Shown here: positions 23,356 to 51,500 of the stretch, piece after piece
Numbering within the stretch: position 1 is the first letter of the stretch
How the letters are laid out: each line of letters opens with the position of its first letter
From: Chitinispirillaceae bacterium
GTDB lineage: Bacteria; Fibrobacterota; Chitinivibrionia; Chitinivibrionales; Chitinispirillaceae
Assembly: GCA_016929595.1 (NCBI GenBank)
Contig: JAFGIN010000068.1
Location: forward strand, 1-64,000
DNA: 64,000 bases
Direction: 5' to 3'
The notes under the pieces: generated by a model
The model's database searches: none
Told to the model about the DNA's origin: nothing
The model's input: the letters and a program-made list of their open reading frames with translations, nothing else
Position numbers and translations under genes: made by a program

Positions 23356-24153
23356 ATGCGTGCAATCTGGTCGGGAGCTTTGAGTTTCGGGTTAATTTAT
23401 ATTCCGGTAAAGCTGTATGATGCAACCCAAAGCCACACCATAGATTTTGATCTCCTTCGCCGCTCGGATTATTGCAGAATCCATTATGCAAAAGTCTGTA
23501 GAGAAACAGGCGAAGAGATCCCTAAGGAAGAGATTGTCCGGGGGTATCAATACAGCAAAGGAAAATATGTCATCGTTGATGAGGATGATTTCAGACGGGC
23601 AAATGTCAAAAAGAGTCAGACAATTGAAATCGTAGCGTTTGTTAAAGAATCCGAAGTCGATATCAGGTTTCTTGAAAAGCCCTATTTTACTGAACCGGCT
23701 AAGGAGGCTGGTAAAGCATACGCACTTCTGCGAGAAGCGCTGCTTAGCAGTGGAAAAGCCGCTATCGCCCGATACGTTATGAGACGACGTGAACATCTGG
23801 CGCTGATCAAGGCTTCAGAATCGGTAATCATTCTTAACAATCTGAGATTCGCCGATGAACTTCGCAGCTCCGAAGAACTCGATCTGCCTGCAAGAGGTAC
23901 AGCTCAATTAAATGACAAAGAATTCGATCTGGCTGTCAAACTTATCGATCAATTAACAGAAAAGTGGGAACCTCATCAATATAAAGACACCTACTATGAG
24001 GAACTGAAAGAATTGCTCAAAAGAAAAATCGAAGGTAAAGCTGAAGAGGCACCACCAGAAGTCGTTTCTCCACAGCCTGCTGTTGCCGACCTTTTCGCAC
24101 GTCTTAATCAAAGCCTTGAACTGGCACGAACAAAAAACAGAAAAGCGGCGTAA
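23356..24153 (+). CDS. ku: Ku protein (non-homologous end joining)
   Basis: A 265-residue protein. Prokaryotic Ku forms a ring-shaped homodimer that threads on broken DNA ends and recruits LigD. The N-terminus MRAIWSGALSFGLIYIPVKL is the diagnostic opening of the family. HYAKVCRETGEEIPKEEIVR, IVDEDDFRRANVKKSQTIEI and YFTEPAKEAGKAYALLREAL follow in the usual order, and the length is normal. The C-terminal tail is lysine/glutamate-rich, typical of the DNA- and LigD-interacting end. It lies ten bases before ligD, which makes a two-gene NHEJ operon. Confidence 0.95.
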   Translation: MRAIWSGALSFGLIYIPVKLYDATQSHTIDFDLLRRSDYCRIHYAKVCRETGEEIPKEEIVRGYQYSKGKYVIVDEDDFRRANVKKSQTIEIVAFVKESEVDIRFLEKPYFTEPAKEAGKAYALLREALLSSGKAAIARYVMRRREHLALIKASESVIILNNLRFADELRSSEELDLPARGTAQLNDKEFDLAVKLIDQLTEKWEPHQYKDTYYEELKELLKRKIEGKAEEAPPEVVSPQPAVADLFARLNQSLELARTKNRKAA

Positions 24154-24162
24154 GCCATTTGC

Positions 24163-35530: not shown

Positions 35531-36982
35531 ATGAGTGATTCTTCTCCTATGATACGTCGTGTGTTGCGTGATGGAACACCCCGTAAACCGCTGATTCCGC
35601 GAAAAGGACGGATTCGTGTAGCGCTGCTTATTACCCTTATTGCTGCACTGACATGGCTGCAACTATCAGGAGCGTTATCATGTGATAAAAAAGAGAATCA
35701 GGATACTACAAAAAAAGTTGAAAATAAAAAGGTAAAAAAGAAAAATAGGAAAACGGCAACAAAAACCTCTTTGGTGGCAAAGACATCAGCTCCGGTAGTT
35801 AATAAGAAACCCGAATTCGGATCTGTAGAAATCAAGGAGTTGCTTTCCCGGGTACCCGGTTCCTGGTTAAAACCATGCGACACCGTCTCTGATGGTAAAA
35901 AAGATCTTATCGTTTGCTACAGTCTCGATTCATCCCTTCAGAAACTCGGGAAATCATTGATGAAAAGGTATAAACCGCTCTATGGAGCGATTGTCGCTAT
36001 ACATCAAGGAACTGGACGTGTGCTATCCCTTATTTCATGGAACCACGACAGTGTCCCCTCTTTAGGTAATAATCTGTTCTGTAAAAGTTTTTTTCCTGCT
36101 GCATCGATATTTAAAACAGTAACAGCCGCTGCTGCAATTGAGCTTGCAGGGTTTACATCAGAAAGCCAGATTCTCCACACAGGCAGAAATCATACACTAT
36201 ACCGATATCAACTTGAAAAGGAACTTGCAGTTTTCAAAGAAATCTCCCTTGAGTTTGCATATGCAAATTCGGTAAATCCTGCATTTGCGCGTATCGGGAT
36301 GTATTCGCTTCCACAAAATGCTCTCGTCGATTTCGGTAATCGCTTTGGTTTCAATACTGAGATGCAATTTGAGCTGCCAGTTGAGCCATCGAACCTCCCA
36401 ACTCCAGACTCTTCATTCACCATTGCGGAGCTTGCATCCGGATTTAATCAGAATACTACATTGTCCCCTCTCCATGGTGCATTGATCGCTTCGGCAATTT
36501 CCCAACAAGGCAGAATTCATTACCCCTACATCGTTGACAGCATCGTTAGTGGTAAATCGGCAATTTACAGGGCCGGTGCCCCGAAAATCTGGAAAACAAT
36601 CATGCAGGAGCGAACAGCGGCAGAGCTCTCCGGAATGATGAAATGTGTTGCACGATACGGGACTGCACGCAAATCGTTCAAATATATGAAAAACTCGAGA
36701 CGTTTTGATGATATTGACTATGGCGGTAAAACCGGATCCGTTGATAAAGATGGCATTGGAAGAGTTGACTGGTTCATAGGTTTCGCAAAGCATCCTCAAG
36801 ATAAACGACAACAGATCGCTGTTAGTGTCCTGACAGTACATGGGGCATACTGGACTGTCCATTCGAGTTATATCGCATCCGAATATTTCCGTAAATATTT
36901 GAGGAGTATACAACTCGAAGATGAAAAGGCATTGAAAATGGTTGCATCTGCAGAAGATAGTTCTATTAACAGATCTGAATAA
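35531..36982 (+). CDS. Penicillin-binding transpeptidase-domain protein
   Basis: A 483-residue inner-membrane protein with its active part in the periplasm. A short basic tail precedes one membrane helix (about residues 32-50), then a Lys-rich linker (52-80). The transpeptidase domain has all three motifs: AASIFKT with nucleophile Ser192 and Lys195, NSVNP (Ser247-Val-Asn249) and GGKTGS (Lys400). It cross-links peptidoglycan and would be a beta-lactam target. The glycosyltransferase domain of class A proteins and the usual class B N-terminal dimerisation domain are missing or much reduced, so it is smaller than FtsI or PBP2. GAGGAAAG lies before the ATG. It stands upstream of era. Confidence 0.85.
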   Translation: MSDSSPMIRRVLRDGTPRKPLIPRKGRIRVALLITLIAALTWLQLSGALSCDKKENQDTTKKVENKKVKKKNRKTATKTSLVAKTSAPVVNKKPEFGSVEIKELLSRVPGSWLKPCDTVSDGKKDLIVCYSLDSSLQKLGKSLMKRYKPLYGAIVAIHQGTGRVLSLISWNHDSVPSLGNNLFCKSFFPAASIFKTVTAAAAIELAGFTSESQILHTGRNHTLYRYQLEKELAVFKEISLEFAYANSVNPAFARIGMYSLPQNALVDFGNRFGFNTEMQFELPVEPSNLPTPDSSFTIAELASGFNQNTTLSPLHGALIASAISQQGRIHYPYIVDSIVSGKSAIYRAGAPKIWKTIMQERTAAELSGMMKCVARYGTARKSFKYMKNSRRFDDIDYGGKTGSVDKDGIGRVDWFIGFAKHPQDKRQQIAVSVLTVHGAYWTVHSSYIASEYFRKYLRSIQLEDEKALKMVASAEDSSINRSE

Positions 36983-36987
36983 CGAAT

Positions 36988-37032
36988 CGTCTCACCTCCT
37001 TGCCCCCTCTCCACTTATTGATGAAGAGGGAG
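36988..37032. repeat. Partial copy of the composite CTCACC/CCCTCTCC palindrome
   Basis: It begins CGTCTCACC, then CCCCCTCTCCA, a short spacer and TGAAGAGGGAG, so CCCTCT (37005-37010) pairs with AGAGGG (37025-37030). The ends match, in inverted orientation, the right half of the element at 52637-52767. It may also act as a terminator for the transpeptidase gene, since AAAAAA follows on the plus strand. Confidence 0.6.
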
Positions 37033-37173
37033 ATAAAAAAGGGTTGTTATACATACCATTTGATAACAAAAACAGACAGATTCCTGTTTTTAAATATCGA
37101 TTATCGAATTACGAATCTTGAATATCGAACTGTTAAAAAAATATTAATTATAAAAATGAATGGACTCTCAAAC

Positions 37174-38094
37174 ATGGATAACACTACAGAAAAAACCTTC
37201 AGGTCGGCGTTTGTCGCTCTTGTTGGAAGGCCAAACAGCGGTAAATCCAGTATCCTCAATAACATTCTCAAAGAGAATCTCTCGATTGTTACTCCGCTTC
37301 CACAAACTACCCGCAAAAACATGCGGGGAATCTACACAACCGATTCCATACAGATTGTTTTTGTTGATACTCCGGGAGTTCACAAGGGAAAGCATTCTCT
37401 TAACAAAGCTATGCTCACCGAAGTAAAAGAGATGCTTGACGAAGGCGGGATTGACTGTGTTGGGTATGTTGTTGACTGTTCAAGAGAATTTGGCATCGAG
37501 GAAGAAGCGGTTGCAGAACTTGTTGGAAAACAATCGGTCGGGAAACTGATTATCTTTAACAAAATAGATATAACCCGAAATATCAATGAAGTTATAACCT
37601 CTTTTTTTAATAAATTCCCCACATTGAAAGATTCACCTCATCTGAAAATCTCTGCACTTGACCACAATAGCGGAGAACTGGTACTCCAACAGCTCGATCC
37701 ATTTATCCATGAAGGTCCCCGGTTTTATGACCCGGATGAGATTACTGATGCAAGCCTCCGATTTTTCGCTGCAGAATACCTCCGAAAGTACATCATTCTC
37801 AACAACAGGGAAGAAGTACCTCACGCTGCATTCATTGAGATTGAATCGTATAAAGAAACTCCTGAACGTCACGAGATCGTTGCTACAATCCATGTGGAAA
37901 CCAATGGGCAGAAAGGCATTGTCATTGGAAAAAATGGCACAGGTATCGAGAAAATTAGAAAAGGTGCCCGTCTTGAGATTAAAAAGCTTGTTGGATGTCC
38001 GGTATCACTAACCTGCCATGTAAAAGTTTCGCCTGGATGGCGCGATAATGATTCTTTTCTACGTTTGATGGGTTTACCCGTAGGGAAGAAGTAG
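37174..38094 (+). CDS. era: GTPase Era
   Basis: A 306-residue GTPase that binds the 3' end of 16S rRNA and aids 30S ribosome assembly. The G1 motif is GRPNSGKSS, G3 is DTPGVHKGKH, G4 is FNKIDIT, and TRKN supplies the switch I threonine region. The C-terminal KH domain contains GQKGIVIGKNGTGIEKIRKG. Length is usual for the family when the ATG at 37174 is used. An ATG at 37156 adds six residues, and the frame remains open to 37000, but that leader has no homology value. The 170 bases before it contain a palindromic repeat and ATCGAAT-type repeats. A strong terminator follows. Confidence 0.95.
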   Translation: MDNTTEKTFRSAFVALVGRPNSGKSSILNNILKENLSIVTPLPQTTRKNMRGIYTTDSIQIVFVDTPGVHKGKHSLNKAMLTEVKEMLDEGGIDCVGYVVDCSREFGIEEEAVAELVGKQSVGKLIIFNKIDITRNINEVITSFFNKFPTLKDSPHLKISALDHNSGELVLQQLDPFIHEGPRFYDPDEITDASLRFFAAEYLRKYIILNNREEVPHAAFIEIESYKETPERHEIVATIHVETNGQKGIVIGKNGTGIEKIRKGARLEIKKLVGCPVSLTCHVKVSPGWRDNDSFLRLMGLPVGKK

Positions 38095-38101
38095 CCTTTC
38101 C

Positions 38102-38131
38102 GACTTTTTTCCACCTGAATGGAAAAAAGTC
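38102..38131 (+). terminator. Strong hairpin after era
   Basis: GACTTTTTTCCA pairs perfectly over 12 bases with TGGAAAAAAGTC across the six-base loop CCTGAA, eight bases after the era stop. The arms are A/T-rich, so it could work in both directions. The following 230 bases to 38363 hold no recognisable gene. Confidence 0.75.
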
Positions 38132-38363
38132 TGAACCATTTTCCGTTCTGATGAATTTTGTCGTATATGCATAATAAAAGATGTGCGGGTAATGCGTATT
38201 ATCGTGTGTAGATTTTCAGATCACTCACCGGACAGAAATCTTCGCTACGTTTCTTCAAAGTACTCCCTTGAAGCCATTTAACTGGTGAGAAATTTACGTA
38301 ATGATTTTACAGCTAATGTAGGTGTCCATAACACGAAGCGGTTTCTTTCTCAGCCTTATTTAT

Positions 38364-38403
38364 AAAAAAAGAATGGGCAGAGGTAAAAAACTCCACCCAT
38401 TCC
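38364..38403 (-). terminator. Rho-independent terminator of the TonB/CheX/kinase operon
   Basis: Read on the minus strand, GAATGGGTGGAG pairs with CTCTGCCCATTC (two non-Watson-Crick pairs) across TTTTTTAC, and a run of seven T follows. It lies 24 bases after the TonB-dependent receptor stop. It marks the end of the eight-gene minus-strand operon. Confidence 0.85.
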
Positions 38404-38426
38404 ATTCAAATGAGAAAGGACGCGTA

Positions 38427-40994
38427 TTAGAAGTTCTTTGTAACGGTAATACCTAAAGTGCGCTGATCCGCTGAATACAAATCTCTTTGGTCAAGTCCGT
38501 AAACCTGTGATTTACGAAATGTATTTACAGTATTCCGATCCAATTTGTCATTGTCAATTGAATGGTTATCAGTGCCAAGTATGTTGTAAGCATAGAAATT
38601 TACATCAAACTGTTTTGGCAGATAAAAACTCAAACTGAAATTCCACTTTTTTGAGACTGAACGCATAATAAAATCTCTCAAAGATTGTCCTCCGCGTTCA
38701 TCATGGTAAAACCCGTAATAATAAGATGTATCACCATATTCTCTTATGACGGGTAACATACCAGGTAAACCCCAGTTAAGCCTTAGACTAGTCCCTAATG
38801 ACATCCATTCAAACGGAGAATAGATCATATAAAGTTTTGTCAAATGATCCGGAAGGCTCATAAAGTGATCCCCATCAAATGTGACTGATGTTTTGACAAC
38901 ATTCAGATCAACTGGAGCACTTTTTGAGTAGTAACCCTGATATAGGGAATCTCCATTTACATCATATCCATTGAAATATCCGAAGCTGCCATGTCCGGTT
39001 GAATCGAGTCGGTATATATTATATGTTTTTTTCTCTTTATCAGGGTCGGTTCTAACAGGACGCTGATAGGTGTGAGCTGCACCGATCTGAAGTTTCTTTG
39101 TTGAATATTTTACATTGAGGTCAGCATTTATAAACTCATATTGACCCACATTAACTACCCGGAAAAGTGCATCTGTCCATCCAAACAGATCCATTATTTT
39201 ATTCCAGGAAAATGATGGTTCAATAGTGAGTGCATCCATGAACTGTCCAACATACGTAAACTCAACAGAATGAACCTTCTCTGGTTTTAGTTCATGTAAA
39301 ATTTTATCTGATGGTGCAGGTTGGACGATTCCCCCACCACCATTGACTGTCACTGGATTAATTAAATTAGGATCAGTATTTACATTCTGTAAAACAGGCA
39401 TTTTATTTATTTTTCCTTCATCGTCTACATGATATCTGTTAATCTCATAGTTATCAACGGTACCATTATTGGATGCAGATTGATATATTAACTTAAGAGA
39501 GTGTTTTTCATTTGGTCTGCATATGAAAGCAACCTTGGGATTAAACATCACAGCTCTTGAATGGATATCAAGTCTAAATCCTGCATGAGCCCCGATTACA
39601 TCGGTAAAATCATAAAACCCTTCACCGAACAACGATAGATTGTAATATGTTTCATCTTTAATAATAAATTTCTTTTCATTCCGGAATGCTTCATTATTTC
39701 CATCCATATCATTTCCAAAATCATCGATTCTAAATTCAGTACCCAGCGCAGTCTGAAGCTTATCAATTGATTTCAACAGAAATGTCGCATTTGCGAGATA
39801 GCGTGTATCGCCAAATGTCTCCGCAACTTTTCCATTTCTGTATGTTTTATCTGGAAAGTATGCATCAAGTTTTTCTTCCTGAGTTCGCGAAGTACTCTTA
39901 TCGAACGCAAGTTTTAACTTAAGACTGTTTTCATTGATCGGAACCTCATAACTACCTTCTATCATGAGTGCATCACTAACATATTGACGCATTCCGTTTC
40001 GCCAACTCTCCGTTGTAATCCAGTAGGGATCATTATTAGCAACTGTTTTTCCATCAACAATGGTACTGCGGGCATTGTCACCAGACCACAGTGGTTGTCC
40101 TGAGAGTTCAGGCCATGGATCAAGTACAAAGTATGGAGCGGCATTTTCAACCTGATGAGTAGCTCTGGCATAGATATTGAATTTGTCCCATGTCCAGTCT
40201 GCAGCAACTTTCCAGTTACCGTCAGTTGACCCCAGGCGCCCATCTGTTGGAGCACCCTGACGGAAACCGGGAGCACCCGGCCAACCGGCGGTACCATATA
40301 CTCTGGTTTTAAAATAATCAAGGCCCTCACTCTGACGAAACCCAGCAGAAACTGACAGTTTCTGATCATCAGAAGGAGTTGCATACAGATTGGCTTCTAT
40401 GGATTTTGAACCATCAGTACCACCACTCATTGATACTGAAGATCCCGGTTCTTCAGCTTTTTTCGCAACGACATTGATAATACCCGCTATAGCTCCGGTA
40501 CCATATACTAAGCCGGCTGGTCCTCTGAGCACTTCAACACGTTCAATGTCACCAAGTAAACCAAGTACTGTTTCACTCTGGAAACCATCACGGGTCTGTG
40601 TGTTCATCTTGTGGCCATTTACGAGGTAGATTATCTTGGTATTGCGGTCATTAGAAACACCGCGCATTCCCCATATTGTACCATTCCACTTATTTATATT
40701 GTAGATAAACCCGGGAACATAGATCTCAAGTAACTCAGACATATGTCGTGCACCGGAATTTCGGATCATATCTTTTGTAATAACGGTCATGGACAATGGT
40801 GATTTTTTCAAATCAAGCTCAAGGAACGACCCGGTTGTAATCTTCATCGTAAGAATATCACCTAACGATAACTCATCAAGTACAGTTTCACTTACTTCGC
40901 TGGCAGCATCCTCCTCTTCAGAAAACGCATACCATTGGGGAAACAGGCTTGCAGAGGCTACCAGCATCCCGATTCCCGCTAATTTTTTAATCAT
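38427..40994 (-). CDS. TonB-dependent outer-membrane receptor
   Basis: An 855-residue receptor. The signal peptide is residues 1-24. The plug domain (about 55-175) shows LDLKKSPLSMTVITKDMIRN, SGARHMSELLEIYVPGF, TKIIYLVNGHKMNTQTRDGF, DIERVEVLRGPAGLVYG and GAIAGIINVVAK. The 22-strand barrel ends RTLGITVTKNF with a C-terminal Phe. The TonB box is not obvious; LSLGDILTMKI is a candidate. These receptors import large or scarce ligands using the proton motive force. The substrate is unknown. It is the last gene of an operon that starts with two CheA-like kinases, and it has a ribosome-binding site GGAAGG. Its place beside a substrate-binding protein suggests joint transport or sensing. Confidence 0.88.
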   Translation of the reverse strand: MIKKLAGIGMLVASASLFPQWYAFSEEEDAASEVSETVLDELSLGDILTMKITTGSFLELDLKKSPLSMTVITKDMIRNSGARHMSELLEIYVPGFIYNINKWNGTIWGMRGVSNDRNTKIIYLVNGHKMNTQTRDGFQSETVLGLLGDIERVEVLRGPAGLVYGTGAIAGIINVVAKKAEEPGSSVSMSGGTDGSKSIEANLYATPSDDQKLSVSAGFRQSEGLDYFKTRVYGTAGWPGAPGFRQGAPTDGRLGSTDGNWKVAADWTWDKFNIYARATHQVENAAPYFVLDPWPELSGQPLWSGDNARSTIVDGKTVANNDPYWITTESWRNGMRQYVSDALMIEGSYEVPINENSLKLKLAFDKSTSRTQEEKLDAYFPDKTYRNGKVAETFGDTRYLANATFLLKSIDKLQTALGTEFRIDDFGNDMDGNNEAFRNEKKFIIKDETYYNLSLFGEGFYDFTDVIGAHAGFRLDIHSRAVMFNPKVAFICRPNEKHSLKLIYQSASNNGTVDNYEINRYHVDDEGKINKMPVLQNVNTDPNLINPVTVNGGGGIVQPAPSDKILHELKPEKVHSVEFTYVGQFMDALTIEPSFSWNKIMDLFGWTDALFRVVNVGQYEFINADLNVKYSTKKLQIGAAHTYQRPVRTDPDKEKKTYNIYRLDSTGHGSFGYFNGYDVNGDSLYQGYYSKSAPVDLNVVKTSVTFDGDHFMSLPDHLTKLYMIYSPFEWMSLGTSLRLNWGLPGMLPVIREYGDTSYYYGFYHDERGGQSLRDFIMRSVSKKWNFSLSFYLPKQFDVNFYAYNILGTDNHSIDNDKLDRNTVNTFRKSQVYGLDQRDLYSADQRTLGITVTKNF

Positions 40995-41022
40995 AATACA
41001 TCCGCCTTCCTATTAAGGAGAA

Positions 41023-42021
41023 CTATTTTAATATTTTATCTACCACTTTCAACTTTTGTTCTGTTGCATTAAAATTCTTTTTGGCTTGTCTAAAATTAAT
41101 AATTTTGTAAACAGAGATAGGAGGATCGACCTTTTCATTCTCACATTGCCAGTCGTTTTCCATGATATCATAGATCTTCCCGGCAGCCTGACTCCCAAGA
41201 AATACATGATCCGGGAGAACTGCATATGTTCCAAAATCAAGCTGAGGACTGACAAGAATTTCAACACCAACAATCACTGGCTTTTTCTTCTTCCTGACGG
41301 TTGGTACCCAGACGTTCTGTATTATATCTGGCTTGAGAAATGCATTGTCGTTAGGAACCCACAGAACATCTACATTATGTTCTTCGAAAAGCGTTTTCAG
41401 CCCCTTTTTAAGTAACTTTTTGTATTCACTGCTTTTATTTGGAAGTGTAACTTCAACAATTTCTATTCCCTCCATCATGCAGAATTTTTTATTCTGCGTC
41501 AAAAATCTGTCAAGAAATTCCCTGTGAATTACTCCCACTTTTTTCACGGGAACATCTAATACCGACCGCAGACTTACCACACTGGTTACTATTGGTATTT
41601 CGTACGATATACCAGTTGCGTTCTTTATCTCCTTTATTGCATCAGCTATGAAAACGCCCATTATTGACAATGATGGCAAAACAGTTTCGCCATCCTTTAA
41701 AGTTGACTGATATTTTTTGAAGAGTGTTATTGAAGTGTTATCCATCAGGACTACAAGTTTTGGATTAGTTGCGTCAATTTCAAGTTTGATTTCATCAACC
41801 TCCGACTTTCTGGTAATGACTTTATCCTTGATAGTAAAATCGCTTTTCAGTTCTTCAATAAGGCCTTTAAGCGCATCCTCAAAATCTTTTCCATCCTGAC
41901 GAACTACCAGCAGTGTATCTTTCGCCAGAACGACATTTACTACGATAAACAGAATTACTGTAAAAGTCCTTATATGTGGCATTGTCAAACCAGCCTTGCA
42001 TAGTACTTCTTTTATTTCCAT
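41023..42021 (-). CDS. ABC-type substrate-binding protein (PF04392-like)
   Basis: A 332-residue exported protein. With the ATG at 42021 (GAGG seven bases upstream) the signal peptide has a long n-region; the second ATG (MPHIRTFTVIL, 41982) gives a more normal signal ending VLAKD. The mature protein has two Rossmann-like lobes: ATNPKLVVLMDNTSITLFKK, KKVGVIHREFLDRFLTQN, NVDVLWVPNDNAFLKPDIIQ and FGTYAVLPDHVFLGSQAAGK, the layout of the ABC_sub_bind family (tryptophan/tyrosine-type ligands and others). No permease or ATPase gene is nearby. A sensory role for the kinases upstream or a carrier role for the receptor downstream is an inference. It overlaps the preceding small gene by ten bases. Confidence 0.75.
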   Translation of the reverse strand: MEIKEVLCKAGLTMPHIRTFTVILFIVVNVVLAKDTLLVVRQDGKDFEDALKGLIEELKSDFTIKDKVITRKSEVDEIKLEIDATNPKLVVLMDNTSITLFKKYQSTLKDGETVLPSLSIMGVFIADAIKEIKNATGISYEIPIVTSVVSLRSVLDVPVKKVGVIHREFLDRFLTQNKKFCMMEGIEIVEVTLPNKSSEYKKLLKKGLKTLFEEHNVDVLWVPNDNAFLKPDIIQNVWVPTVRKKKKPVIVGVEILVSPQLDFGTYAVLPDHVFLGSQAAGKIYDIMENDWQCENEKVDPPISVYKIINFRQAKKNFNATEQKLKVVDKILK

Positions 42022-42335
42022 AAATCCACCTCAAAAAAAGAGCATAATTCCTTATCGGCAGATTTTAGTGCGGAAGCGACCTTATCTGCATTCCCTCCTG
42101 TTTTTACTGCAAGAGCAACAATACCATCTTTTAAATCCGGAAGTTTAGTGATTACGAAGTTCAAAATGGACGTTGATTTAAAATACAAAACATCAGGCTC
42201 CTGCACACTTTTCTGTATTTTATCCTGTACTGCCTGAGGACGGATAACCGAAGGATAAAACACATACACGTTGTCCTTCGAAAGGGGGTTACTTACCCAT
42301 AACACTAAGAGAGTTATAAGTAGTTTTTTTCTCAT
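42012..42335 (-). CDS. Small secreted protein of unknown function
   Basis: A 107-residue protein with a signal peptide (MRKKLLITLLVLWVSNPLSK). The mature part of about 87 residues has a mixed alpha/beta pattern (VYVFYPSVIRPQAVQDKIQK, then DGIVALAVKTGGNADKVASA). No known family was recognised. It might be a shortened periplasmic binding domain. It lies between CheY and the substrate-binding protein, overlaps the latter by ten bases, and is thus very likely expressed and part of the same system. Confidence 0.65.
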   Translation of the reverse strand: MRKKLLITLLVLWVSNPLSKDNVYVFYPSVIRPQAVQDKIQKSVQEPDVLYFKSTSILNFVITKLPDLKDGIVALAVKTGGNADKVASALKSADKELCSFFEVDLWK

Positions 42336-42371
42336 ACTTTTTTACTCATACCAATAATGAAAAAAGCATCA

Positions 42372-42755
42372 TTACTGATTGAAAATTTCACTAACTGTTT
42401 CCTTGAAATCATTGACGAATTCACTATCTGCAAATTTTAATGGTTTTTCTACATACCCTTTTGCACCTGCGCTCATACATTCAAGCATCGCACTGCCTCG
42501 TACCGCTGAAATCATAAGTATATTTGCATCAGGAAAATCCTTAATAATTTCTTTCATCGCATCCATACCATCTTTGTTTGGCATGGTTATATCGAGAGTA
42601 ATAAGATCAGGTTTGAATTTTGTATACAGTTCTATAGCTTCATTTCCGTCATTTCCAGTACCTAGTACCTGGAATTCAAGTTGTTTCTCAAAAAAATCGA
42701 CAATCTGCTTTATCAGAAACTTCGAATCATCTACTACAACTACTGTTTTTGACAT
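42372..42755 (-). CDS. CheY-type single-domain response regulator
   Basis: A 127-residue receiver domain with no output domain. The acidic pair Asp9/Asp10 (VVVVDDSKF), the phosphorylation site Asp55 (LITLDITMPNKDGMDAM), the switch Ser in LMISAVRGS and Lys in GYVEKPLKF are all present. GAGG precedes the ATG. It should receive phosphate from the two Hpt-containing kinases and be reset by the two CheX-like phosphatases of the operon. Its final target (flagellar or other) cannot be read from the sequence; no motility gene is nearby. Confidence 0.92.
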   Translation of the reverse strand: MSKTVVVVDDSKFLIKQIVDFFEKQLEFQVLGTGNDGNEAIELYTKFKPDLITLDITMPNKDGMDAMKEIIKDFPDANILMISAVRGSAMLECMSAGAKGYVEKPLKFADSEFVNDFKETVSEIFNQ

Positions 42756-42787
42756 ATCGCATCCTCACTTTACATATAAACTGCATA

Positions 42788-43297
42788 CTACTTATTTTTA
42801 ATTGCAAATCCAACCAGCAATTCTTCATCATTGACTGCTACAGATCCATTGACACCGGAGATAAAAGGCAGAAACGGGATTCCTTTTGTATAGAGTATTG
42901 GAACAGTCTGGTTCAGAAAACCAAATTGTTCTGTAAAATCAACCCGATCCATCAACACAGCAAACCACGTATTGGCTAACTCTCCGAACACATCACAGAA
43001 CTCACTTTGCTCGAGTTCCTGCCCAGTAAGTTCAACTATACATTTGTTATTTACTCCTAAGGTCAGTATTGACTGATACTTCTCGCTTGCACTTCCCATC
43101 ATTAATATATACTGACTATCGATTTCAATATGTTTATTGGAACACCAGGCCTTATCAACCAAAGCGTTCCTGCCAAAAAGAGCCTCGATACTCAAACAGG
43201 TAGTTTCTGAAAAAACAGTGATCATCTTTTCTAACTTTTTCTGGATGGCATCATCATTACTTTTATTTTTCAATGCTCCGTTAATATTTGTCGCCAT
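42788..43297 (-). CDS. CheX-like phosphatase domain protein
   Basis: A 169-residue cytoplasmic protein from the ATG at 43297; TTG 43321 and ATG 43318 are in-frame alternatives. It matches the CheC/CheX phosphatase fold: an ILMMGSASEKYQSILTLGVN strand pair and the catalytic ExxN motif in FGELANTWFAVLMD (Glu106, Asn109). CheX dimers dephosphorylate CheY-P by inserting Glu and Asn into its active site. The C-terminal segment (NGSVAVNDEELLVGFAIKN) matches the last two strands. It is a paralogue of the next gene upstream (43364-43843). Confidence 0.8.
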   Translation of the reverse strand: MATNINGALKNKSNDDAIQKKLEKMITVFSETTCLSIEALFGRNALVDKAWCSNKHIEIDSQYILMMGSASEKYQSILTLGVNNKCIVELTGQELEQSEFCDVFGELANTWFAVLMDRVDFTEQFGFLNQTVPILYTKGIPFLPFISGVNGSVAVNDEELLVGFAIKNK

Positions 43298-43363
43298 AAT
43301 TTCCGTGTCCCTGTCCATCAAATTTCTGCGCTTATAACGATAATCCAGTAATGGTACCGTCTC

Positions 43364-43843
43364 TCACACCAACAACTTCCTTATTGCAAATCCAATATTA
43401 ATTTCATGATCATCAGTTGTAACTATTGTTCCGCAAAAAGCCCAGGCTTTTGAATAAAAGACATCACCACTGGAATATTGTGGTATAGATTGTGTCAGAT
43501 ATCCGAAATTTCCGGTAAACTCACTCTTGTCCATTAACATACCGCAGTATGTATTTGCAAATTCACCCCAGGCGTCGATCAACTCTTCAAAACATGATGA
43601 AGCAATCAGTCCCATATCAGCGTCTGATTTGAAACTGATCGCAAGAATCGCCTGATAAAGATTATTTCCGGTACCAAGCATTATATTGTGAGGATTGTTA
43701 CCGGGTAATCGTTCCAGAATTACCCATGGCTCAACAACCCGTCCTTTTACACCTGCGAACGCTTCTACGCACTCGATACCAATTGCAGGGAATATTTCGT
43801 CGCATTGCTCAAGTTTTTCTTTTATTTCATTGTCAAGTATCAA
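43364..43843 (-). CDS. CheX-like phosphatase domain protein
   Basis: A 159-residue cytoplasmic protein starting at a TTG eight bases after GGAG. It has the same fold and length as its neighbour: NIMLGTGNNLYQAILAISFK, the ExxN motif in AWGEFANTYCGMLMD (Glu94, Asn97) and a closing TTDDHEINIGFAIRK. Two separate CheX-like genes plus a third CheX-like domain in a kinase is an unusual dose of phosphatase for one CheY. They might form heterodimers or serve different phospho-donors; this is speculation. Confidence 0.8.
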   Translation of the reverse strand: MILDNEIKEKLEQCDEIFPAIGIECVEAFAGVKGRVVEPWVILERLPGNNPHNIMLGTGNNLYQAILAISFKSDADMGLIASSCFEELIDAWGEFANTYCGMLMDKSEFTGNFGYLTQSIPQYSSGDVFYSKAWAFCGTIVTTDDHEINIGFAIRKLLV

Positions 43844-43864
43844 CGTTAAAACTCCGTTTAATTT

Positions 43865-46228
43865 TCAGGATGGCAGGATTATGGTAAAAGTAGTTCCTTT
43901 TCCAAGACGCGTGTTTATCTCAATTTTTCCTCCAAGACCTTCAATTTTTTCTTTTACCACATTCATTCCGACTCCACGTCCCGATGTGTCGGTTATCGCA
44001 TCGGCAGTTGATATCCCAGCATGAAACATCAACATTAACTTATCCTGCTCAGTCATCGATTGAAGATCTTCCGTTTTGATTATACCTTTTTGTATCGACT
44101 TTTCAACCAGTTTTTCAGTATCGATTCCACGCCCGTCATCAGAAATCAGAATCACTTTTTGTCTGTCATTCTTTGAATATTCAAGCTTTATTCTTCCAAT
44201 ACCTTTACCCATCTCTTCCCGAACTTCTGGTTCTTCAATTCCATGATCTACTGCATTTCGCATAAGATGAAGTATGGCATCATCAATAGCACAGAGCTCA
44301 TCAGCGGGGTAAAGTACAGCATCATTAACAACTTCAAATTCAACATTCTTATTCTGTTTTCTTATTGCCCTCTGAATAATTTTCAGGTATTTACGTGTTA
44401 AAGTTTTCAACGGCTTCCATGTTAACATCATACATTCAATGGCAAGTGGTTTAATTACATTATCGGACACTTTTGATTCTAAACCTTTACACATATCCTG
44501 AATCTTAAGAATACGATTTTCGGGTATTCTTACTGTAATTTCATCATCTTTGCCAAACACAAGCTTTATTTTCTGATGAATATCTTCCATAGCCTCATCC
44601 ATTTTTCCCAGGTATTCAGTAATCATTCCAAGACTGTCACCTCGCCGCATTTTGACAGGTTGCCGTAACTCCTCAAGCATATCCTCCGCTTTATGGGCAA
44701 TCGCAGAAATCAGTTCAAAACCATAAGATCCCGCATTTCCTTTAATAGTATGAATATGACGATACATTGCGTCAATTTTTTCTTTCGTCACAACATATTC
44801 GGGTCCATCGGGATGATTAGTACGCTGTTTTATAACACCTTCCATGTGCACTTTTACCTCTTTATGAAGGTCAAACAAACGATCCTTTGTATCATCCATA
44901 AACTCCACAATCTCTTCCGGGGGGGTATTTGCTATTCCCAGAATCGCTTTCACTTCGTTTTCATGTTTGAACCTCTCTGCAGCCATCTGAAGATCCTTCA
45001 TCCGTTTCTCGGTCTCATCCATCGCAAGAATCATTATCTTTGAAAGATTTCCTGCCTTATCGAAAACTTTCTGATATGATATCGCCACATACTGCTGAGA
45101 ATTTTCCTCATTCTGCAGCAGTTCAAGTTCCTGAACCGGTGCAAGTTTTGTCAGTTTCTTCCAGCGCTGTGATGCGTGACGGGTTTTCACCAGTTTCAAC
45201 CATTCATCAAATGCACGTTTCTGATTACCATCCAGCCGTAAGAGCTGGTTAAGATTATATGATGCAATATCATCGACTTTAAGTATCTCATTGGCACGTG
45301 CAGAGTATTCTTTATTAACCGTTCCATCCAGATTAATTGTAAAAAGCCCCTGATCGATATTGTTAAGGATATCATTGACCTGCTGCATCTTTTCATCGAT
45401 CAAATCCTGTAAATGATCAGTATATTGTTTGATAGTTGCACGCATTGTTTCAAAATGTTCCGCAAGATTTCCAATTTCATCATTACTATCTGATGTAACA
45501 GCTGTATTGTAATTACCGCCTGCAATAGCCTGCGCAGATGTTACCAAAGAGCCAATAGGTCTGGTAATCTTCGTTGCAATCTGCTTTATAAGTATGTATC
45601 CTGTGGCAAGAGAAATGGTGCCTAATAAAAGCAGTATACCTATTGAGATATTTCGAGATACCCGCCCCCCAGCAAGAATATCATCAATCATCGCATACAT
45701 CTTTTTTGTACTTAATCCGTACCGTATACAACCAAGTTTTTCATCTTCTGAAGTAACCGGAGCAGCAAATTCTATAAATTCAAGGTTTCCAATATAATGA
45801 GTTCTGTACGACACGGCTTCTAAAGCTGCAGCCCATTGTGTCATACTGTCATTAAGAGGCTCCGGAGATGAAACTGTACCTTCAGGATTATCACTAGTCG
45901 CATATACCCAGGGAATGTTATTCTCATTCATATAAATTCCGTAGGAAACATAGTCATCATCTTTTACGGTTGATGAAACCAGTGCCTGGATAGCAGTGAA
46001 AGCATTATCTTCAGCCATTCCTGTCATCGCCATACTGTTGTTCTTTACCAGAGTTTTACCATTGGAAATCAGGTTATCCATTATGCTTTTCTTCTGCTTT
46101 GCGATATTTTTTTCAACTGACATGACATTCATTATTATAATGACAGAAAGAACACACGCGAATATCACTGAAATCAGTACCATTGTACTGGAAATCAACT
46201 TGGTTTTTATACTTACCATTTTTTTCAT
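43865..46228 (-). CDS. Membrane CheA-like histidine kinase (Cache-HAMP-PAS-Hpt-HATPase)
   Basis: A 787-residue sensor kinase. It has one membrane helix at about 11-33, a periplasmic single-Cache-like sensor (about 35-190: YVSYGIYMNENNIPWVYATS, CIRYGLSTKKM) and a second helix at 195-215. A HAMP linker (KITRPIGSLVTSAQAIAGGN), a PAS-like domain (285-400) and an Hpt domain with phosphoryl His493 (HIHTIKGNAGSYGF) follow. The CheA-type ATPase domain has HLMRNAVDHGIEEPEV, SDDGRGID and SGRGVGMNVVKE. It ends at the ATPase and lacks the CheW-like P5 domain of true CheA, so it would not join receptor arrays. It starts one base after the upstream kinase's stop, behind AAAGGTG. Confidence 0.87.
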   Translation of the reverse strand: MKKMVSIKTKLISSTMVLISVIFACVLSVIIIMNVMSVEKNIAKQKKSIMDNLISNGKTLVKNNSMAMTGMAEDNAFTAIQALVSSTVKDDDYVSYGIYMNENNIPWVYATSDNPEGTVSSPEPLNDSMTQWAAALEAVSYRTHYIGNLEFIEFAAPVTSEDEKLGCIRYGLSTKKMYAMIDDILAGGRVSRNISIGILLLLGTISLATGYILIKQIATKITRPIGSLVTSAQAIAGGNYNTAVTSDSNDEIGNLAEHFETMRATIKQYTDHLQDLIDEKMQQVNDILNNIDQGLFTINLDGTVNKEYSARANEILKVDDIASYNLNQLLRLDGNQKRAFDEWLKLVKTRHASQRWKKLTKLAPVQELELLQNEENSQQYVAISYQKVFDKAGNLSKIMILAMDETEKRMKDLQMAAERFKHENEVKAILGIANTPPEEIVEFMDDTKDRLFDLHKEVKVHMEGVIKQRTNHPDGPEYVVTKEKIDAMYRHIHTIKGNAGSYGFELISAIAHKAEDMLEELRQPVKMRRGDSLGMITEYLGKMDEAMEDIHQKIKLVFGKDDEITVRIPENRILKIQDMCKGLESKVSDNVIKPLAIECMMLTWKPLKTLTRKYLKIIQRAIRKQNKNVEFEVVNDAVLYPADELCAIDDAILHLMRNAVDHGIEEPEVREEMGKGIGRIKLEYSKNDRQKVILISDDGRGIDTEKLVEKSIQKGIIKTEDLQSMTEQDKLMLMFHAGISTADAITDTSGRGVGMNVVKEKIEGLGGKIEINTRLGKGTTFTIILPS

Positions 46229-46229
46229 A

Positions 46230-48362
46230 TCAGTTCACCTTTGCCTGTAGTTCAATTTCCGGAACCGGAATAATAAGTGTAACAATGGATCCTTTCCCTT
46301 TTTCACTCTTTATTTTCACATGGCCTCCAATTTTTGTCAATGTATGATCCACAAAATCCATCCCGACCCCACTTCCTGACAACATTGTTACTGTCGAACA
46401 GGTGGTAAAGCCGGGTTTGAACAGGTAACTATATAGTTCTTCCAGGCTTAATTTAGCGACCTCATCCTGGCTCATTTTGTAGATACTTTTGATTTTTTCC
46501 ATTACAACTGGAATATCAATCCCCCTTCCATCATCCTCGAAAGAGATGATGTAGGAATTATTTTCTTTCTTACCGGAAATTACTATGACTCCATTTTCAA
46601 TTTTTCCAGCTTTCAGACGCTCCTCCGGAAGTTCGATACCATGATCAATCGCATTATTGATCAGGTGTATAAAGCATTGGTGAATCGCACGAATAATCTC
46701 GATCTCGATTCCGATGTCCATTGCAATAGATAGTGCGACCTTCTTATTTACCTTCTCACTGCTGTTTTTAGCCAGAGATTCGAGTGATGACAGGAAAAAA
46801 GAGAGCTTCATTCTTTTCAGATCACAAAGTGCATCATGGCACTGGCTCATCTCTTCTATAAAAAAATCATCTTTGATTAAGTTTTTACTTTTAAGAAGTA
46901 TTCTCTTGCACCGTATCCTCAGATCATCGATATCCTGAGAACTAACCATAATAGTATTGGGATCTCTGTCAGCTTTCTGCCGTAATGTCTCTTCTTTACC
47001 ACCAAGTTTAGTACGAATATCTTTAATACGGGAAATGTAGTTTTTTGCATCTTCGATTGACGTTTTAACTTCTGATATAATTCCCGGATCTATATTGTAT
47101 GTTTGATTTCGATAACGTCGTAAATGATCTTCAACCTTGTGTGCCATCTCCTGGAGCGCTCTGAATTGAAACTGCCCGGAGCTGCCCTTGAGCGTATGAA
47201 ATGTCCTGAACAATTCATTTACAAATTCGTGATCGCAGCTGTCTCCCTCAACAATTCTTTGTGCATCTGTCAGTAGTTGAGAAGAATCATAGATAAAATT
47301 TGTCACTTCATCGGGATTGATATTGATTACCTGTGAAATCAGTTCAAGGTTTTCCTGATGCCGTTTGTTTAATTCATCCATCTTCTTTTCAAGTTCCCGC
47401 TGCTTTGTTATATCCTCAATAACAACAAGTAGTTTTTCGAGTATATTATTTACATTATCAATTACAGGCAGCCAGTCAAGTTTAAGTATTCTACCATTGT
47501 TTGTTTTAACCTCATTGATTTCACATAATTCTTTCAGATCTTTGAATGGAATCAAATCAAACTTCTTAAATACCAGATCCAACCAGTTTTTCCAGGAACC
47601 ACCAACACCGGCATCGATTTTGAGGATGTCGGGCAAAAAACAACCTGTTATTGATATGCATTCATCTATACAGGCAACAGCTTTCATTGATTTGCTATGC
47701 CCAGGGAGAATTATCCCTAACTGATCTATAGCTACCAATCCGACAGGCAAAAGCTCCAGTATACTCGAAATATTTTTCTGAGCCTCCAGTGCTTCAGCAG
47801 TTTTCTTTTCAAGGTCAACAAGGGCTTCCTCGAGTTTTTGACCTATGCGTAAATTTGCAAGGTTCAGTGAAAAACCACACAATATGTTTCCATGTTCACT
47901 TTCCAGAAGAACATTTCCTGAGAGGAAATCGGGAAACTCCAGTTCACCATACACAACAGTGCTGGGATTAAATGTCAAATCTCCAAAATTCTTTTCAAGT
48001 TCAACAATCGACTGCCCTACCGATAAATTGAGAACCTCTTTTACAAATCCGCTGAAATCGCCACGCATCTCCCGAATCTGCTCCTCGGACATCCCATCTG
48101 AAAAAGCGCCCATAATTTTCAATGCAGCAGCTTCATCAAGACTGCACAAATAATTTCCCTGAATTGTTCCCGAGAATGATATGAATGTGATCATTTTAAA
48201 CGATGAAACAAAGGAGGATTCACTGAAAGAACTTTCTTTTACAGTGAATGATACACCTACCATGTCATTTATTGACTGGCACATCTTTGCAGCGAAATTC
48301 AACGTGTTGGATTTAAGATACCCGTCTCCTGGAGTTGATACCAATATTGCACCCCCGATCAT
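46230..48362 (-). CDS. Soluble CheA-like kinase with N-terminal CheX-like domain
   Basis: A 710-residue cytoplasmic protein from the ATG at 48362; a TTG at 48410 would add 16 residues, and neither has a good ribosome-binding site. Residues 1-165 match the CheX fold, with the ExxN motif in FVKEVLNLSVGQ (Glu109, Asn112). A coiled-coil (KLEEALVDLEKKTAEALEAQ) leads into a PAS-like domain (about 195-325) and a second coil. The Hpt domain carries phosphoryl His389 (FRTFHTLKGSSGQFQF). The ATPase has HLINNAIDHGIELPEE, FEDDGRGIDI and SGSGVGMDFVDHTL. There is no CheW-like domain. A putative phosphatase fused to a kinase of the same pathway is notable. It is the first gene of the operon; its promoter must lie in 48363-48505. 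Confidence 0.83.
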   Translation of the reverse strand: MIGGAILVSTPGDGYLKSNTLNFAAKMCQSINDMVGVSFTVKESSFSESSFVSSFKMITFISFSGTIQGNYLCSLDEAAALKIMGAFSDGMSEEQIREMRGDFSGFVKEVLNLSVGQSIVELEKNFGDLTFNPSTVVYGELEFPDFLSGNVLLESEHGNILCGFSLNLANLRIGQKLEEALVDLEKKTAEALEAQKNISSILELLPVGLVAIDQLGIILPGHSKSMKAVACIDECISITGCFLPDILKIDAGVGGSWKNWLDLVFKKFDLIPFKDLKELCEINEVKTNNGRILKLDWLPVIDNVNNILEKLLVVIEDITKQRELEKKMDELNKRHQENLELISQVININPDEVTNFIYDSSQLLTDAQRIVEGDSCDHEFVNELFRTFHTLKGSSGQFQFRALQEMAHKVEDHLRRYRNQTYNIDPGIISEVKTSIEDAKNYISRIKDIRTKLGGKEETLRQKADRDPNTIMVSSQDIDDLRIRCKRILLKSKNLIKDDFFIEEMSQCHDALCDLKRMKLSFFLSSLESLAKNSSEKVNKKVALSIAMDIGIEIEIIRAIHQCFIHLINNAIDHGIELPEERLKAGKIENGVIVISGKKENNSYIISFEDDGRGIDIPVVMEKIKSIYKMSQDEVAKLSLEELYSYLFKPGFTTCSTVTMLSGSGVGMDFVDHTLTKIGGHVKIKSEKGKGSIVTLIIPVPEIELQAKVN

Positions 48363-48505
48363 TATGTCTGATAACAGGCTAATTGTAATATCAGGCCATT
48401 GAAGTGGCAACTCTATTCATGTATGCGATAGAAAATCAACTGGTTATGAAAATTATCGTGAGGCAGGTTTCTGAAGAAAGCTCAAAATTCGCTCATGAGA
48501 TTACA

Positions 48506-51500
48506 TTAATGTGGTGGATGAATTACCAGCTTGCATATCTTACTTTTTGAATTTTTCTTCACACCGGATGAATAGAGCTGCACCTGATACAGATAGACAT
48601 CAGGACTCAATGATCTGCCTCTCTGGTCCGTTCCATCCCACATTTGACCATTCTCAGCATCTTTGATCACCCTGATAAGTTTACCGGAGAGCGAATAAAT
48701 TCGTATCATGGCACGAAAGTGCGAACCAGTCTCATGCGAGGTAGAGCTGTGATAGAAATAAAATCTGGTAGAACCACCATGGACCATTGGATTAGGGTAA
48801 TTAAACACTCTATCAAGAGACAGATCGCTTTCATTCGTTATTATTAATTGGAATGTTTTTTTTGTTTTATTACCAGAGAGATCAGCCGCACAGATAGTAA
48901 GTTCATAGTCACCCGTCCCCAGAACACTTTTGTCAAAATCCAGTACCGCAGTGCCTGTCCTGAAATCCCCTTCACTGAATTGAAACCATGAATTGATATT
49001 CTGTCTATCAATGACATCCTTAACATAATATGACAATCCCTCATCCGGACCGGTACCCGTGACATCGATACCACTCTCATCATCAATAACAATCTCGCAC
49101 TGCATCGGCAGCGACGAAGTAATTCTGTCAGTAAATGAAATTGCCGGTTTACTCATTTTGCTGTCAGCATACAGAGGTCTTATCAAAATCCGGGGTCCCG
49201 TACTATCATCATGCGTCCCATTCTCAGACCCATTGAAGGTCAGATCATCACGATACCCGCCACCAGATTCACCGGTGCGTTCCCGCCACGCGTATGCAGT
49301 CAGACGTGTACCTGGTTTGTTAAATGGTACATTTTCACCGATTTTTAATGTTTGTGAAAAAATCCCCCTTTTTACTTCGACTTTTCCAAGAAAAACCGGT
49401 TTACCCGGGAGTTGATATTTTTCATCTCTGTCGATACCGTCCTTCCTTGATGCGCTGTCTGGCGGATTAAATAATCCAATCTGTACAAACGCCCGATCAT
49501 TCGATGTTCCGAAGGACTCATTAAGAACTCCATTACCAGTGACTTGTCCGCTAATGACAATTTTCTGCCGCGCTTTTATCTGGTTTATCTGCTTTCCAGC
49601 GGAATCGGTAACATCAAGATCAATTCTGTACATCGAGTTTACTAATTTAAGCGAAGGATCACCAAAATAAATGTACTTGTATGATGATTCACCGACAACA
49701 AGTTTTGCCAGTGTCAGCATATATCCCATACTGTTTACTTTATGATTTGTATCGAGGACAACACTGAAAAACAAGTCACCAAGAGGTCCATTGTCATGAG
49801 CAAACGATGAGCGACTACTTCCAATCGCTGCAATAGCCCCGGCATCCGGAGCACATACGAATGATTCAGATAGACAGGATGAAGATTGATCAAATTTACC
49901 AACAGAACATGAGAATGATGCAATCAGGGGGTATTTTTTTTTATTGGAAAGAAGGCTAATTTTATTGGACGTCATTACCTGCTCATCAGCCCAGAGGTCA
50001 TGACTGCCATGCCCGTAATAGCATACAAATCCCGCACCGTTCTGTATTTGATTTATAATTGCAGCTGCTGCCCCGGGCTTGTGGTAACCGGTATTGTCAA
50101 AACCATAGTCAAATAGCGGTATCACTCGTATATCCGCAGATCCAAATGTTTTACCGAAAAGATCAGCGGTATTTTCACTGTAGGTACGATGTTTGATTGG
50201 ATCAACTTTACCAAGTTGATCATCATCATCATATACAAACACAGCCCGGTTTCGCCATTCTCCAAAATCAGCCGTCCCAGGCAGTTCATACTGCCTGATT
50301 TTATCGACCACAACAAGCGCTTCCCGCAATGAGCGACACGATATTCTTCCAATACTCTTTACAGGAATATCGTTAATAATACAGAAATACTCATCCTGTG
50401 GTACATTCCCTCCAGAATAGTAGGATGGAATGAAACATTTACTATTTGCATATACTTTCCTGACATCAAAATGTGCCCCGCCCATCAGAAGAACATACTC
50501 GAGGTTTTCACCATCTTTCCAGCCGGAATTATGCACATACTGTAAAAAATTCCTTATCGCCGCAGGGTCTGTATTTCCGCCGCTGAATGACCTGTATACA
50601 TTATTGATATCAACTATCATGGGGTTTACAAAACCCATCTGTTTTTTATGTTCACAAAGTTTTTCTGCCGCAGTTATAAAATCCGGGTGAGTAATGATAA
50701 GATAATCAGACTGATTATGATGATTATATAAATCGTTAATAATTGTGTCATTGCTACTATGAACAACATACTCTTCATTAGGTGGAAGATCTCTTAATGC
50801 CGACTCTTTGCAAAGCAAATACCTGTTTCCTTTACCACCGCTATCAGTCCAGCTGAACGTATCACCACTCCCCGATCTCACTGTATCGATCAGCGCAATA
50901 TAACTTTCATCTGCCGGAACTTTAAAAATGTATACATACTCAGAATCGATGCCACTCACCCGATACCTGTGTAAACCTTCAGAAGTATCAGAAAATACAG
51001 TCAATAAAGAGTCTTTTCCGATATGGATTTTATCAGTAAAAGTGAGACCTATTTCATAAATTTCAGCAAATGATGCCTCTTTCGATGGATTATTAGCATC
51101 AAATTCAAATGATATTTTTCTATCCTTCCAGCCGCTGACTTGGAATGTTTGTCTTGACCAGGAATGGCATGCGCTTTTTATCACACTCCCGGCGGAAAAG
51201 AACAAGGAACCATTATTGACATATGCCATTACATTAAGAGTGGCTTTTCCATGTTCAGGAAGCCCTGGATTGAGATAAAAGCTTACGTTTTCTTTACTTT
51301 CATAAAGAGATTCCCACACCCATAGCAGGCCGCCCTCGCTTTGATGCGGCATTGCAGCAGGCCTTCTGAAACAGATCCTGTTAGTAAAGGTATCTGCAGG
51401 TATTCCAACAGGATCGACAGGATCCATCTTATTTACAGTTAATCCATTATTCCCTTTTACTAACCAGTAATGACGATAATCATCATACCGATTCAATTTC

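Follow-up and report, generated by a model that had tools for sequence, protein, structure and literature searches.

In LuxPQ and TorTS, a binding protein feeds a membrane sensor kinase. LuxP and TorT are named in PMC5908839, according to which AioX is a periplasmic binding protein that is encoded together with a sensor kinase and thought to activate it. A different control is found in the PdcABC system of Burkholderia thailandensis, in which, as summarized in PMC9899790, a diguanylate cyclase is under the control of a lone receiver and a phosphatase of the CheC/CheX type. The same summary has the phosphorylated receiver bind the cyclase at a PAS domain and describes the phosphatase as a protein of its own (PMC9899790).

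Here we describe an operon in a window of 64,000 nucleotides of a Chitinispirillaceae bacterium (Fibrobacterota; GenBank assembly GCA_016929595.1, contig JAFGIN010000068.1, positions 1 to 64,000). The minus strand of the window holds eight genes in the order K1-K2-X3-X4-Y5-S6-B7-T8:

46230 to 48362, minus strand: K1, soluble kinase without P5 (ATG start preferred)
43865 to 46228, minus strand: K2, membrane kinase with Cache, HAMP, Hpt and a CheA P3/P4-type core, without P5
43364 to 43843, minus strand: X3, CheX-fold protein with GEFAN at residue 93
42788 to 43321, minus strand: X4, second CheX-like protein (by alignment to X3) with GELAN at residue 113
42372 to 42755, minus strand: Y5, single-domain CheY
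42012 to 42335, minus strand: S6, 107-aa putative remnant of a periplasmic binding protein of the AioX/PtxB-like fold family
41023 to 42021, minus strand: B7, periplasmic binding protein of the PF04392/TrpX class
38427 to 40994, minus strand: T8, TonB-dependent receptor, with Plug as its only Pfam match
38370 to 38403, minus strand: intrinsic terminator, a 13-pair stem followed by a T-run
48382 to 48410, minus strand: candidate promoter TTGCCA-17-TACAAT, just upstream of the K1 ATG

As in the AioX-AioS-AioR and ArrX-type systems, the operon pairs a sensor kinase with a binding protein, which in those systems is thought to be the ligand of the kinase (PMC5908839). The pairing is seen here as gene linkage. 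The operon differs from AioXSR in that it includes a TonB receptor, its binding proteins are of two kinds, its sensor domain is a Cache, and CheX and CheY accompany a CheA-type core; a DNA-binding regulator is absent. With LuxPQ and TorTS it would share a binding protein that feeds a membrane sensor kinase, as we propose for B7 and K2, but the kinase type differs and those systems are not known to include a TonB receptor. While the phosphatase of PdcABC stands alone, here a CheX-like domain is fused to the effector itself, and the sensor side (receptor, binding proteins and CheA-like kinase) is encoded with the receiver. The CheA P3/P4 core, the CheX fold with its ExxN motif and the CheY phosphorylation residues are common to the operon and to the CheA-CheX-CheY systems of Thermotoga and Borrelia, but the operon has no P5, CheW, chemoreceptor, CheR or CheB, and K2 has its own membrane sensor. 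The parts belong to known families. Their wiring and the use of a CheX-like domain as a reader of phospho-CheY may be undescribed, as no description of the operon unit or of a CheX-like input domain was found in the open-licence PubMed Central titles and abstract starts that were searched.

Organization of the operon

All eight open reading frames lie where an earlier note on this DNA had placed them, as packed minus-strand genes at 38364 to 48410, and the terminator that it described at the end of the operon is seen as the stem and T-run at 38403 to 38370. The intergenic gaps are 1, 21, 42, 32, 36, −10 and 28 bases in gene order. The tight packing therefore holds, while the gap of 66 bases given earlier disappears with these starts (range −10 to 42). 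The 13-pair stem is the longest among 10 terminator-like sites in 36000 to 50500, for which shuffled sequences give 9.4 sites on average. The region has 42 promoter-like sites, no more than its shuffled versions (42.6), as expected by chance. A convergent plus-strand gene flanks the operon on one side. On the other side, directly upstream and on the same strand, lies a gene for a PorU-type T9SS sortase (48506 to 52495, NCBIfam match over the cut-off).

Kinases K1 and K2

K1 is composed of a CheX-like domain, a PAS-like linker (recognized by eye), an Hpt domain and a CheA-type HATPase. Hpt and HATPase exceed the Pfam cut-off, and the CheX match is borderline: one Pfam search gave 23.8 bits, below the cut-off of 27, and another gave 27.4 bits, above the cut-off. 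The Hpt motif HTLKG is at residue 405 in the numbering of the TTG-started frame. The ATG at 48362 is preferred as the probable start over the TTG at 48410, because five long K1 relatives align by BLAST only from residues 22–38 onward; counter to this choice, the CheX-only relative L065 aligns from residue 2. No match was obtained in a first scan of genome contigs with the whole of K1 as query. One K1 relative (L061, 9504–11588, genome G027) is split by a stop codon into frames of 135 and 550 aa. In K2, the HAMP, Hpt and HATPase domains are above the Pfam cut-off, and the sCache match is weak (E 0.015); in the relative L084 it reaches 2.4e-13. A PAS-like linker is again recognized by eye, and the Hpt motif HTIKG is at residue 493. 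The active-site motifs are intact in the kinases, the receiver and the CheX proteins.

No CheW domain was matched by Pfam in nine proteins searched, including the eight of the operon, and no MCP domain in these eight. Aligned to CheA structures, the K2 profile covers P3 and P4 and stops at the end of P4, from which we conclude that P5 is absent. These results uphold two earlier statements, namely that both kinases lack the CheW-like P5 and that the operon encodes no CheW or MCP domain, adaptation enzyme, permease or ATPase (Pfam, eight proteins). Of the features of a canonical Che system, the operon thus lacks a CheA with a CheW-binding P5 together with CheW and a chemoreceptor, and it has a CheA-type P3/P4 kinase core with an Hpt phospho-acceptor.

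CheX-like proteins and CheY

For X3 and X4, Pfam yielded nothing usable; both keep the motif GExxN. The structure of X3 was predicted with a pLDDT of 93.9, and the 15 best PDB matches of the model in a fold search are CheX, CheC and CheC-like chains and one ‘putative chemotaxis protein’. The fold matches 1xko and 3hzh we take to be structures of the Thermotoga and Borrelia CheX systems. To be noted, these relatives came from the fold search only; PDB profile searches with the X3 and S6 alignments returned no meaningful relative. The hallmarks of a CheX phosphatase, a CheC/CheX fold and ExxN, are thus found, the fold in the X3 model and the motif in X3, X4 and K1. Accordingly, the three CheX-like domains that had been proposed are recovered in K1 (borderline Pfam match and ExxN), X3 (fold and motif) and X4 (motif and alignment to X3). 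The single CheY is Y5, which has a receiver match in Pfam and all phosphorylation residues in place (D9, D10, D55, S83 and K104). Its best matches among solved structures are CheY proteins, presumably from Thermotoga and archaea.

Binding proteins and receptor

S6 had been described as a small secreted protein. That this protein is intact is contradicted by its relatives: its 107 aa align to eight proteins of 231–254 aa, with an in-frame loss of about 125 internal residues. S6 is, as judged by this alignment, an internally deleted copy of an AioX/PtxB-fold binding protein of which only the ends are left in the window genome. The deletion may be either a natural event or an assembly fault. The end of S6 still overlaps the start of B7 by 10 bases, so translational coupling may be kept. 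An intact S6 relative was predicted with a pLDDT of 94.5, and the model resembles type II binding proteins, namely 7t1m (a sterol transporter), PtxB, AioX and ArrX. An assignment to the YfiR-like proteins, suggested by NCBIfam names, was rejected, as the fold matches are of the PtxB/AioX class and no YfiR is among the best 50 listed. Relatives therefore carry two binding proteins, one of which is reduced in the window genome.

B7 itself has no Pfam match. A homologue from Pleionea passes PF04392 (30.4 versus a cut-off of 25.9), which supports the original assignment as an ABC-type binding protein of this class. The Plug match likewise agrees with the naming of T8 as a TonB-dependent receptor. 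FecA-type signalling by T8 was considered and rejected, because no extra N-terminal domain was found on T8 (Pfam) and no FecR or sigma partner is among the eight operon proteins. The window genome has 14 matches to ExbD-family proteins, so TonB-type energy is probably available. A permease and an ATPase, which accompany the binding protein in ABC uptake, are missing from the operon (Pfam). In addition, in a motif scan of 57 loci, some of which stop earlier at a contig end, no ABC ATPase appeared at 3 kb or less from B7. Sensing therefore fits better than ABC import.

Linkage and distribution

A B7 match is present in 28 of 167 Fibrobacterota genomes, including all 26 genomes with a listed K2-type Cache sensor. 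Among the matches listed, B7 is no more than 10 kb away from 23 of the 31 K2-type Cache sensors, while 0.21 would be expected under uniform placement. For this count, HAMP-only rows, rows without a Cache part and two weak rows of G153 (42.3 and 37.7 bits) were left out of the sensor set, two partial contig-end rows (G026 and G165) were kept, and the B7 set comprised 42 of 51 rows, without fusions and matches of 140.1 bits or less. Some of the eight sensors without a nearby B7 lie at contig ends; those on G038 C797, G156 C100 and G158 C95 do not. A Plug gene is found within 10 kb of at least 14 of 20 sensors in 16 genomes (0.86 expected), and up to six of the 20 have no Plug within this distance among the Plug matches listed. 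In the nearest relative, G019, the genes K2-X3-Y5-S6-B7-T8 have the same order and strand as in the window. The recurring set is K2, X3, Y5, S6, B7 and T8, in varying order, and K1 and X4 are sometimes missing. The expectation that receptor, binding-protein and che-like genes recur together beyond the window genome was thus borne out, and the grouping appears to reflect unusual wiring among known parts more than a chance gathering of genes.

When loci were retrieved with B7 alone, S6 was adjacent in 48 of 57 (46 upstream and 2 downstream, measured from profile coordinates), and a Plug gene and a Cache sensor, counted anywhere in the locus, were each present in 41 of 57. The B7 loci from outside Fibrobacterota include records named as Gammaproteobacteria (Beggiatoa-type and others), Desulfobacterales, Caldithrix, and Myxococcales or Polyangiaceae. 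The input set of receptor, binding proteins and Cache sensor thus extends to Gammaproteobacteria, Desulfobacterota, Calditrichota and Myxococcota, and the output core behind it is in some cases a different one. Candidatus Parabeggiatoa and Halobeggiatoa have the CheX-like domain, K2, Y5, S6 and B7, and no stand-alone X3 was found in their loci. The Cache region of the window is 55% identical to that of Halobeggiatoa versus 57 and 64% for two members of its own family, and B7 is 43% identical versus 55 and 61%. These identities hint at horizontal transfer. Cache distances correlate with those of B7 (r 0.76), S6 (0.72) and T8 (0.44), above all 2000 permutations, a correlation that common descent alone could produce.

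Two kinase-free sets of receptor, B7 and S6 were also seen in the window genome, in L021 (6594–11799, contig C200) and L022 (6009–12318, contig C78). A B7-like protein with a DUF4388 domain is encoded on C78 and another in L100.

Exchangeable output cores

After removal of 15 duplicates, 51 distinct sensors of the K2 family were compared, and their neighbours were sought with six-frame profiles. By a 140-bit split set before the test, the core is CheA-like in 37 and of another kind in 14. Relatives of X3 or Y5 are found near 21 of the 37 and near none of the 14 (p 2e-4), nor near any of the remaining 13 when L079, whose core is cut by a contig end, is left out, which leaves the result almost unchanged. 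Within Fibrobacterota, the counts are 19 of 22 and 0 of 3. The p values are a guide only, since related genomes do not count as independent samples. S6 is near 32/37 sensors with CheA-like and 13/14 with other cores, and Plug near 24/37 and 12/14, respectively. The receptor, the binding proteins and the Cache sensor occur with both kinds of core and X3 and Y5 with one, which argues that the former make up one group and that CheX and CheY go with the CheA-like core. Since B7 was the bait for many of the loci, its count in this comparison is no evidence. With a 240-bit split, chosen after viewing the table, X3 is near 18 and Y5 near 20 of 24 sensors, and neither is near the other 27. Thirteen distant CheA-like cores (140–240 bits) have no X3 or Y5 nearby as far as the profiles, which were built from Fibrobacterota and may miss distant relatives, can detect at the score thresholds applied. 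The version with a Cache-HisKA sensor adjoins a sigma-54 response regulator, and hybrid kinases and SpoIIE are further cores found behind a K2-type Cache sensor.

CheX-like domain of K1 as a candidate output reader

The CheX-like domain of K1 is also found fused to GGDEF in seven proteins (Pfam), one of them in the window genome on contig C186, and to SpoIIE in three. Fusion to a range of output enzymes usually marks a domain as an input domain, and we propose on this ground that the CheX-like domain may read phospho-Y5. Across an alignment of 28 rows, in which one row is cut short, one has an R and two are the K1 of the window itself, the glutamate of ExxN is kept in 26 and the asparagine in 27. 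Y5-type CheY proteins are held by 16 of the 17 genomes with a K1-type CheX-like domain (Fisher 5e-16). Of 29 copies of the domain, counted as rows that cover the CheX part of the K1 profile matches, 12 lie within 10 kb of a Y5-type CheY (0.2 expected); without the kinase fusions the count is 6 of 21. Seven genomes have Y5 and no detected K1-type CheX-like domain, so CheX-domain proteins cannot be the sole output and others must exist.

A CheX-type protein and a receiver genetically tied to a putative cyclase, as in PdcABC, are seen in two relatives: in G146 a CheX-GGDEF gene is divergent from the operon, and in G015 such a gene follows X3-Y5-S6 in convergent orientation. The window genome has its CheX-GGDEF gene apart from the operon, on C186, and the neighbours of that gene match no profile of the operon parts. 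The motif is GGDEF in three of eight CheX-GGDEF proteins and GGDEI or GGDEM in the rest, GGDEI in the window genome, so cyclase activity is uncertain.

The earlier note had read the operon as a self-contained phosphorelay that senses a ligand. The recurring unit stands, and sensing fits it better than ABC import. Self-containment probably does not stand, since the CheX-like domain of K1 occurs also on GGDEF and SpoIIE proteins encoded elsewhere; and instead of a multi-step relay, CheA-to-CheY phosphotransfer would be the better description of the predicted parts. The output of the lone CheY, which was not evident from the operon, now has candidates in the CheX-domain effectors, by their GGDEF and SpoIIE fusions and their co-occurrence with Y5.

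Proposed mechanism and alternatives

The genes present and their predicted folds, the intact catalytic motifs, the conservation of the linkage and the varied cores behind one input set lead us to a model that we consider probable by a small measure: the operon would encode a ligand sensor that spans the envelope, with CheA-to-CheY signalling that is reset by CheX and read by CheX-domain effectors, perhaps via c-di-GMP. T8 would admit or detect the ligand at the outer membrane, and B7, in most relatives together with S6, would transfer it by presentation to the periplasmic Cache domain of K2. The CheA-type core of K2 would autophosphorylate the Hpt histidine and pass the phosphate on to Y5, the proposed direction of transfer. 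X3, X4 and the CheX-like domain of K1 may bind and dephosphorylate Y5, and binding of phospho-Y5 may tune K1 and a CheX-GGDEF protein, perhaps shifting c-di-GMP. The output would most likely be carried by CheX-domain effectors, because the CheX-like domain of K1 is found fused to a kinase, GGDEF or SpoIIE.

The operon might instead provide an accessory input to chemotaxis, in which K2 phosphorylates Y5 and Y5 acts on FliM, so that swimming is steered toward the ligand of the receptor. CheX phosphatases belong to chemotaxis, and the best structure matches of Y5 are, as described above, CheY proteins. In the window genome, CheW domains are found in five CheA frames, alongside 13 MCP-domain matches (two in one frame) and flagellar genes (judged by eye); with such canonical Che systems and apparent flagella, Y5 could act on a motor. 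FapA-family genes, named for flagellar assembly, also recur near K1, K2 or Y5 (L058, L065 and L142; Pfam). We nevertheless regard this reading as unlikely: the operon has neither adaptation enzymes nor chemoreceptors, the identical input set is found elsewhere with HisKA, hybrid, SpoIIE and sigma-54 partners, and the CheX-like domain has GGDEF and SpoIIE among its fusion partners.

It is quite improbable, in our judgement, that receptor and binding protein serve import while the kinase genes regulate or accompany them with no physical coupling. The sets on C200 and C78 indicate that receptor and binding proteins can exist without a kinase, and in L021 a gene that by eye resembles an ABC ATPase is found on the opposite strand, 2.8 kb away from the set. 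Against import stand the missing permease and ATPase in the operon, the result of the ATPase scan around B7 in the 57 loci, and the Cache sensor that accompanies the receptor and binding proteins across phyla and output cores. The Cache-B7 distance correlation (0 of 2000 permutations as high) points the same way, and shared ancestry also gives such a correlation.

Beyond the model of an envelope ligand sensor with CheX-domain outputs, a wider claim is possible and, in our view, rather doubtful: a hitherto undescribed cross-phylum system in which TonB receptors and binding proteins drive a CheA-type kinase without chemoreceptor or CheW, and in which CheX-like domains are phospho-CheY readers that switch kinase, GGDEF or SpoIIE enzymes. 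If true, a phosphatase fold would have been turned into a general input domain. Should CheX-like domains read phospho-CheY, sequence searches could identify candidate partners for lone CheY proteins. The system would link TonB-dependent outer-membrane receptors with chemotaxis-type phosphosignalling, two fields that are rarely joined. The input of receptor, binding proteins and Cache before CheA-like, HisKA, hybrid and SpoIIE cores forms a natural series, by which the coupling of a periplasmic ligand to a kinase is testable.

Two further gene groups were observed. Besides its FapA-family gene, L058 (7887–12926) contains genes for an HDOD-receiver protein, a receiver and a HisKA kinase (Pfam). 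In the window, two adjacent genes at 23356 to 26691 resemble, by eye, Ku and LigD of end-joining repair.
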